Made by a program: the position numbers and the translations under genes. From Halomonas binhaiensis (lineage in GTDB: Bacteria > Pseudomonadota > Gammaproteobacteria > Pseudomonadales > Halomonadaceae), in NCBI RefSeq assembly GCF_008329985.2, contig NZ_CP038437.2, forward strand, positions 1,612,001 to 1,676,000: DNA of 64,000 nt, read 5' to 3'. The notes under the pieces were generated by a model that had not been told where the DNA came from, made no database searches, and saw only the letters and a list, made by a program, of their open reading frames with translations. Positions 15,028 to 16,190 of the stretch are shown piece by piece (the first letter of the stretch is position 1; each line of letters begins with the position of its first letter).

Positions 15028-16190
15028 ATGGATAAACTGATCATTACCGGCAATGGCCCGACCCACGGAGAGGTTTGGGTCAGTGGTGCCAAGAACGCCG
15101 CACTGCCTATTCTGTGTGCCACTCTGCTTTCTGAAGAGCCGGTGACCATCGGCAACCTGCCGCATTTGCAGGACATCACCACGACGCTTGAACTGCTGGG
15201 CCACCTGGGAGTGGAAGCGGTTCTTGGCGAGGATATGAGCGTCCAGCTCAATGGTGCTCAAGTCGAGCATTGTGATGCGCCCTATGAACTGGTCAAGAAA
15301 ATGCGCGCTTCCATTCTGGTGCTGGGACCCTTGCTTGCCCACTTTGGCAAAGCGGATGTTTCCCTGCCAGGAGGATGTGCCATTGGATCGCGTCCGGTGG
15401 ACCTACACCTGCGCGGACTCGAGGCCATGGGGGCGGATATTCGTGTCGAAGGTGGTTACATTCGTGCGCGCAGCGATGGTCGTCTCAAGGGAGCGACCAT
15501 CTTCTTCGATGTAGTGACCGTGACAGGTACCGAGAACCTGCTGATGGCGGCGACGCTGGCTGAAGGCACCACTGTGCTGGAGAATGCAGCGCGCGAGCCC
15601 GAGGTAGTGGACCTGGCCGAGTGCCTGATCAAGATGGGCGCAGATATCAGCGGCCATGGCACCGATACCATCACTATCCGGGGGGTCGAGCGCCTGCATG
15701 AGGCTGTGCATCATGTCATGCCAGACCGTATCGAGACGGGCACTTTCCTGGTGGCGGCAGCACTCAGTCGTGGCAAGGTCAGAGTGAAGCGGACGCGTGC
15801 CGATATTCTCGAGGCGGTGCTGCGCCATATCCTGCCTTTCCGACTGACATGCAGGCCCAGTTCGTCGCCATGAATGCCGTTGCAGAGGGCACTGGGCGTG
15901 TAGTCGAGACCATCTTCGAGAATCGCTTCATGCATGTGCAGGAGCTCAATCGAATGGGGGCCAGCATTGCCCTGGAAGGAAATACGGCAGTGATTACCGG
16001 GGTTGAAGCATTGTCTGGCGCGCCAGTGATGGCGACCGACCTGCGTGCTTCTGCTTCACTGGTGATCGCGGCGATGATGGCTCAAGGTGAAACCTTGGTG
16101 GATCGTATTTACCACATCGACCGCGGCTACGAATGCATTGAAGAGAAGCTGCAACTGCTGGGCGCCAAGATCAAGCGCATTCCTGGTTGA
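15028..16190 (+). pseudogene. murA: UDP-N-acetylglucosamine enolpyruvyl transferase MurA, broken by an internal deletion
   Basis: MurA makes the first committed step of peptidoglycan synthesis. The first frame (15028-15873) is normal up to [17 protein letters not shown] and includes the catalytic cysteine loop [11 protein letters not shown]. It then runs into about 14 foreign residues and a stop. The second frame gives [14 protein letters not shown] from 15822, continues through [13 protein letters not shown] and ends normally at 16190. Compared with E. coli MurA, about 32 residues between AVL and TAPHPAF are missing, and the net loss of about 100 bp changes the frame. The sequence CTG stands at the joint. 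As written, the gene cannot make active MurA, which is essential. A sequencing or assembly error, or a second murA elsewhere, must be considered. Confidence 0.9.

Follow-up and report, generated by a model that had tools for sequence, protein, structure and literature searches.

The window analysed in this study is a stretch of 64,000 nucleotides from Halomonas binhaiensis, and the gene murA lies at 15028-16190 on its forward strand. Compared with L034 (NZ_JAJUFQ010000004.1, Halomonas sp. MAG bin15), the closest relative found among the best 80 of 577 related loci, 100 bp were absent from murA at 15820-15822, and the frame shifts there. In the alignment with L034, the absent segment amounts to 33 codons plus 1 nt, which changes the reading frame, and it corresponds to residues 266-298 of the 420-residue L034 MurA. 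The gene starts with the ATG at 15028, and no stop interrupts frame 1 before 15873; the similarity to MurA runs in frame 1 until about 15821 and then in frame 3 until 16190. The parts of the gene are as follows:

15028-15821, forward strand: murA N-terminal piece, frame 1, equivalent to L034 MurA residues 1-265, carrying the PGGC loop
15820-15822, forward strand: murA joint, where 100 bp of the relatives are absent; CTG is common to both sides in L034
15822-16190, forward strand: murA C-terminal piece, frame 3, equivalent to L034 MurA residues 299-420

The N-terminal ORF (15028-15873, 281 aa) matched the MurA models TIGR01072 and NF006873 up to positions 266/267, and the C-terminal ORF (15849-16190, 113 aa) matched them from position 307. 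Like MurA proteins in general (TIGR01072, NF006873; PF00275), the pieces before and after the gap match over their whole length, with 98.9% and 99.2% amino acid identity to the L034 MurA, and the catalytic PGGC motif was intact by eye in the N-terminal piece. They differ from such proteins in the loss of 33 residues and of the reading frame, and neither piece, at 361.0 and 187.1 bits, reaches the TIGR01072 full-length cut-off of 392.7 bits. The preliminary description of this DNA had reported an internal deletion of about 100 bp with a change of frame, two well-conserved halves and about 32 missing residues, and the comparison with L034 agrees with all three points, the last being measured at one residue more.

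The sequence of the joint is GTG-CTG-CGCC. In L034, a CTG flanks the segment at each end, which gives 3 nt of shared sequence, and, as had been proposed, the CTG at the joint can be assigned to either side. In the L034 murA, microhomology of at least 3 nt was found at 68 of 1143 start positions (5.9%) of a 100-bp deletion. Such a joint is mildly unexpected by chance, and a microhomology event accounts for it a little better; this is not decisive, and the microhomology is no pointer to where the event happened. A hairpin as the cause was rejected, because the L034 stretch folds no better than its shuffles (z -0.07).

The preliminary description had recommended a comparison with the nearest relatives, and in all of the 80 best-ranking loci, out of 577 related ones in GTDB r220 genomes, murA was open. 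The PGGC loop was present in 80 of these 80 loci, and it shared one open frame with the P-T/S-D-x-Q motif beyond the gap in all 80, L034 included. The DNA identity between L034 and the window was about 92-95% over 20.7 kb. The N-terminal half differed from L034 in 36 synonymous and 3 non-synonymous codons over 264 codons, and the C-terminal half in 15 synonymous and 1 non-synonymous over 121 codons, giving 51 synonymous versus 4 non-synonymous over 385 codons. Both halves are under strong purifying selection, with no sign of relaxation. Because selection is undiminished and the relatives are intact, the lesion is either very young or absent from the organism.

Among 292 genomes of the order drawn at a completeness of at least 95%, MurA scored above the curated cut-off in 286. 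The other six were the assembly holding the window (G000) and five drafts of 110-730 contigs, in which murA was split over contigs (G084 and G114) or only weak AroA-like matches were found (G057, G134 and G249). Only in G000 among these six does the break in murA fall inside one contig, and by a hand count of about 45 single-contig genomes, G000 alone had a best MurA match weaker than 1e-160. In the same genus, outside the 292-genome draw, the murA of G003 (85% complete, 260 contigs; L118, G003:C245:17500-22000) is about 48 residues short without a frame change, and the PGGC catalytic loop is among the residues lost. A literature search on murA pseudogenes in complete Halomonas genomes returned nothing evidently on topic.

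The two ORFs overlap by 25 nt, which could permit coupled translation, and the conserved residues are kept in both pieces, so that a working two-piece or frameshifted MurA was considered. In any frame, the missing 33 residues are gone, and they fall within the length of the best-matching solved homologue, 6cn1, and contain 10 columns invariant among 19 MurAs (K267, L268, E270, G272, A273, L284, D285, M286, G288 and T298). The C-terminal frame has its earliest ATG, GTG or TTG at 15849, immediately behind the GAC codon (15846-15848) of the invariant Asp of the PTD motif, Asp307 of the L034 MurA, so the first usual start of this ORF omits that Asp. We take this residue to be Asp305 of E. coli MurA; a literature search on the role of E. 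coli Asp305 found nothing. No Shine-Dalgarno sequence was seen by eye in the 35 bases preceding 15849, and the split arrangement occurred in none of the best 80 relatives (of 577). A split MurA enzyme is unlikely from these sequence features, and we believe that there is almost no chance of the two ORFs yielding an active MurA.

G000 consists of one contig (4,895,269 bases) and has a completeness rating of 100%. The search of G000 with PF00275 gave only AroA (788-aa frame) and the two murA pieces, and the search with TIGR01072 returned these three again plus one match at E 0.34; a second MurA in G000 was therefore rejected. The missing segment was not found elsewhere in G000, where the L034 DNA gave matches of only 16-20 bases, and a relocation of the segment was likewise rejected. 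The second murA that the preliminary description had offered as one explanation is thus excluded for this assembly by the model searches and the search for the missing DNA. Another genome of the genus, G007, carries a second, distant MurA-like gene (G007:C1:1891544-1892296; 37% identity, 445-aa frame). Such a gene would lend some colour to the idea that an intact or second MurA is carried by a plasmid absent from the assembly, but the G007 copy sits on the 4.09-Mb main contig, and G000, one complete contig, gives no sign of a plasmid copy; we regard this idea as hardly credible.

The preliminary description had also stated that the rest of the pathway is intact, and this holds for the later peptidoglycan precursor genes, which span 35608-46002 on the forward strand of the window, and for murB outside it. 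Each of the seven genes in the window was unbroken and passed at least one curated NCBIfam cut-off:

35608-37224, forward strand: murE
37224-38600, forward strand: murF
38610-39692, forward strand: mraY
39700-41118, forward strand: murD
42466-43602, forward strand: murG
43508-45079, forward strand: murC, its ORF start being upstream of the real one
45076-46002, forward strand: ddl
G000 1681441-1681812, outside the window: murB, unbroken, MurB_C domain, 366-aa open frame

In addition, positions 32170-32522 of the window contain an RNase P RNA (RF00010, 337.7 bits), which overlaps the longest reading of the mraW ORF at that ORF's 5' end.

Wall precursors could also be supplied by salvage. The AmgK/MurU route recycles existing MurNAc and makes none new; therefore, it allows no net growth without an outside source of MurNAc. 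G000 has a MurU gene (304.9 bits against a curated cut-off of 250) adjoining an AmgK-like gene that stays below its cut-off (224.3 against 550 bits) at about 823.1-824.8 kb (L186:3095-4806), and this side-by-side arrangement resembles the recycling system of Pseudomonas, which by-passes MurA and MurB for recycled MurNAc (PMC5371407). In mycobacteria, a preprint reports that a MurNAc probe partly rescued MurA depletion (PMC13041923). The difference is that the Pseudomonas system is salvage only. If the murA deletion were fixed and AmgK and MurU made UDP-MurNAc out of MurNAc that was recycled or supplied, the continued selection on both murA halves would be left unexplained, and murA is intact in relatives of the same family background. 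We consider this very unlikely. Of the unusual precursor supply suggested by the preliminary description, the genes are present, but a supply that only recycles MurNAc is unlikely to account for the lesion.

The soundness of the assembly was evaluated by a frame survey against the genome of the relative G029, which used all ORFs of at least 60 aa and covered 1,264,000 of 4,895,269 bases (1.26 Mb, 26%). In the first 464 kb, a frame change was found in 1 of 138 orthologs of G029 ORFs, and this was murA; at 864 kb, it was found in 2 of 229, the second flag being an antisense ORF over rplI. Over the whole 1,264 kb, the survey flagged 14 of 808 ORF matches in G000; the reverse comparison (G029) flagged 9 of 816. 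The 14 included murA, an antisense ORF over murA, and rplI. Three more, including RC|64064, looked after alignment like antisense ORFs across poorly conserved spacers; RC|631229 was by eye in an apparent tRNA cluster, and RC|216263 was ahead of the first Pfam domain of a TPP-enzyme gene, at the gene's 5' end. The breaks in murA and rplI were the only ones recognised inside known genes among the flagged matches inspected, which leave out RC|190326, RC|222853, RC|35820, RC|223183 and RC|36150 (71-93 aa).

In the reverse direction, no break inside a Pfam domain of G029 was found in seven of the nine flagged matches: B|32413 begins in rnpB, before the Pfam domain, the break in C|292354 precedes the Pfam domain, and L245:13122, L245:15933, L143:9324, L253:5000 and L252:19319 have no Pfam domain. 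The remaining two are near-identical second copies of L253:5000 and L252:19319 and were outside the Pfam scan. Thirteen in-frame stops in single-frame matches, each within residues 1-47 of the query or in its final part, were attributed to differing starts or ends. Over the 20.7 kb compared with L034, the indels of the window outside murA were all small and were compensated or lay in spacers or close to gene starts, and no other uncompensated mid-gene frame change was seen. A generally frame-noisy assembly was rejected for the sampled part by the surveys of 464, 864 and 1,264 kb and the 20.7-kb comparison. The assembly is good overall, yet two or more single-copy core genes in it are locally damaged.

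The second lesion, judged against G029 and the family model alone, lies in rplI, which encodes ribosomal protein L9:

G000:C1:802265-802601 (L185:2265-2601), outside the window: damaged rplI, the sole L9 gene of the genome

In G000, rplI is in two frames and is net 110 bp shorter than in G029, whose L9 gene is intact (148 residues, with Pfam L9_N and L9_C). TIGR00158 matched positions 1-39 and 83-148 in different frames, and its search of G000 gave no other L9 gene. The flanks were 97% (residues 1-31) and 95% (the 66 residues 83-148) identical to G029, and the 43 bases between them matched G029 in patches only. This middle looks like a patchwork, unlike one clean deletion, so the lesions of murA and rplI may have separate causes. 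E. coli can do without L9, and the loss of rplI could be real. Between rplI and dnaB, G000 also has a 521-aa ORF, presumably CstA-like (L185:2901-4466; G000:C1:805184-805954 was noted alongside), while in G029 a DnaB-like ORF directly follows rplI with no 521-aa ORF between them.

Growth requires MurA. G000 has no copy of the missing segment, the relatives do not share the lesion, and a further implausible core-gene lesion, rplI, was encountered in the 26% of the chromosome surveyed. An unshared frame-breaking gap in an essential, single-copy, strongly selected gene, together with the rplI lesion, points to a local error of sequence: we believe that the 100-bp gap is very probably an error of assembly and that murA is intact in the living strain. 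The gap may have come from reads that were misjoined or badly resolved, or from faulty polishing or gap-closing. We infer that the murA and rplI lesions both come from sequencing or assembly. Frame-breaking errors occur in assemblies of otherwise complete genomes, and the present case resembles them in the single-copy essential gene, the clean flanks, the unshared lesion and the second core gene hit; it differs in a gap of 100 bp instead of the usual 1-2 bases, and in being deduced from sequence. Against an assembly error are the otherwise clean state of G000 seen in the 20.7-kb comparison and the 464-kb survey, the 3-nt microhomology, which is often seen in physical deletions, and the patchwork of rplI. 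A wrong sequence at the joint was one of three alternatives in the preliminary description and is now the best supported, mainly because rplI, another single-copy core gene, is comparably damaged. Its phrase of an essential gene being broken describes the assembly but probably does not describe the organism.

Next after a local error ranks a deletion that is physical in only part of the sequenced DNA, through a mixed culture, a collapsed tandem duplication or a multi-copy chromosome keeping an intact murA, with the assembler having retained the deleted form. The clean joint with its microhomology and the undiminished selection on both halves, as in a very recent event, are consistent with it; however, G000 has no second copy, a lethal allele should remain rare and lose the consensus, and the damaged rplI is unexplained, so we hold it to be improbable. 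A true loss of murA is possible and unlikely: we see little likelihood of a free-living gammaproteobacterium whose sole murA is truly broken and which stays alive by AmgK/MurU salvage or by intact copies persisting in a multi-copy chromosome. If the gap is an error, a single-contig, 100%-complete genome can hold false losses of core genes (murA and probably rplI), which would mislead metabolic models or lists of essential genes. A real deletion would mean that a bacterium has naturally escaped a step of peptidoglycan synthesis regarded as indispensable.
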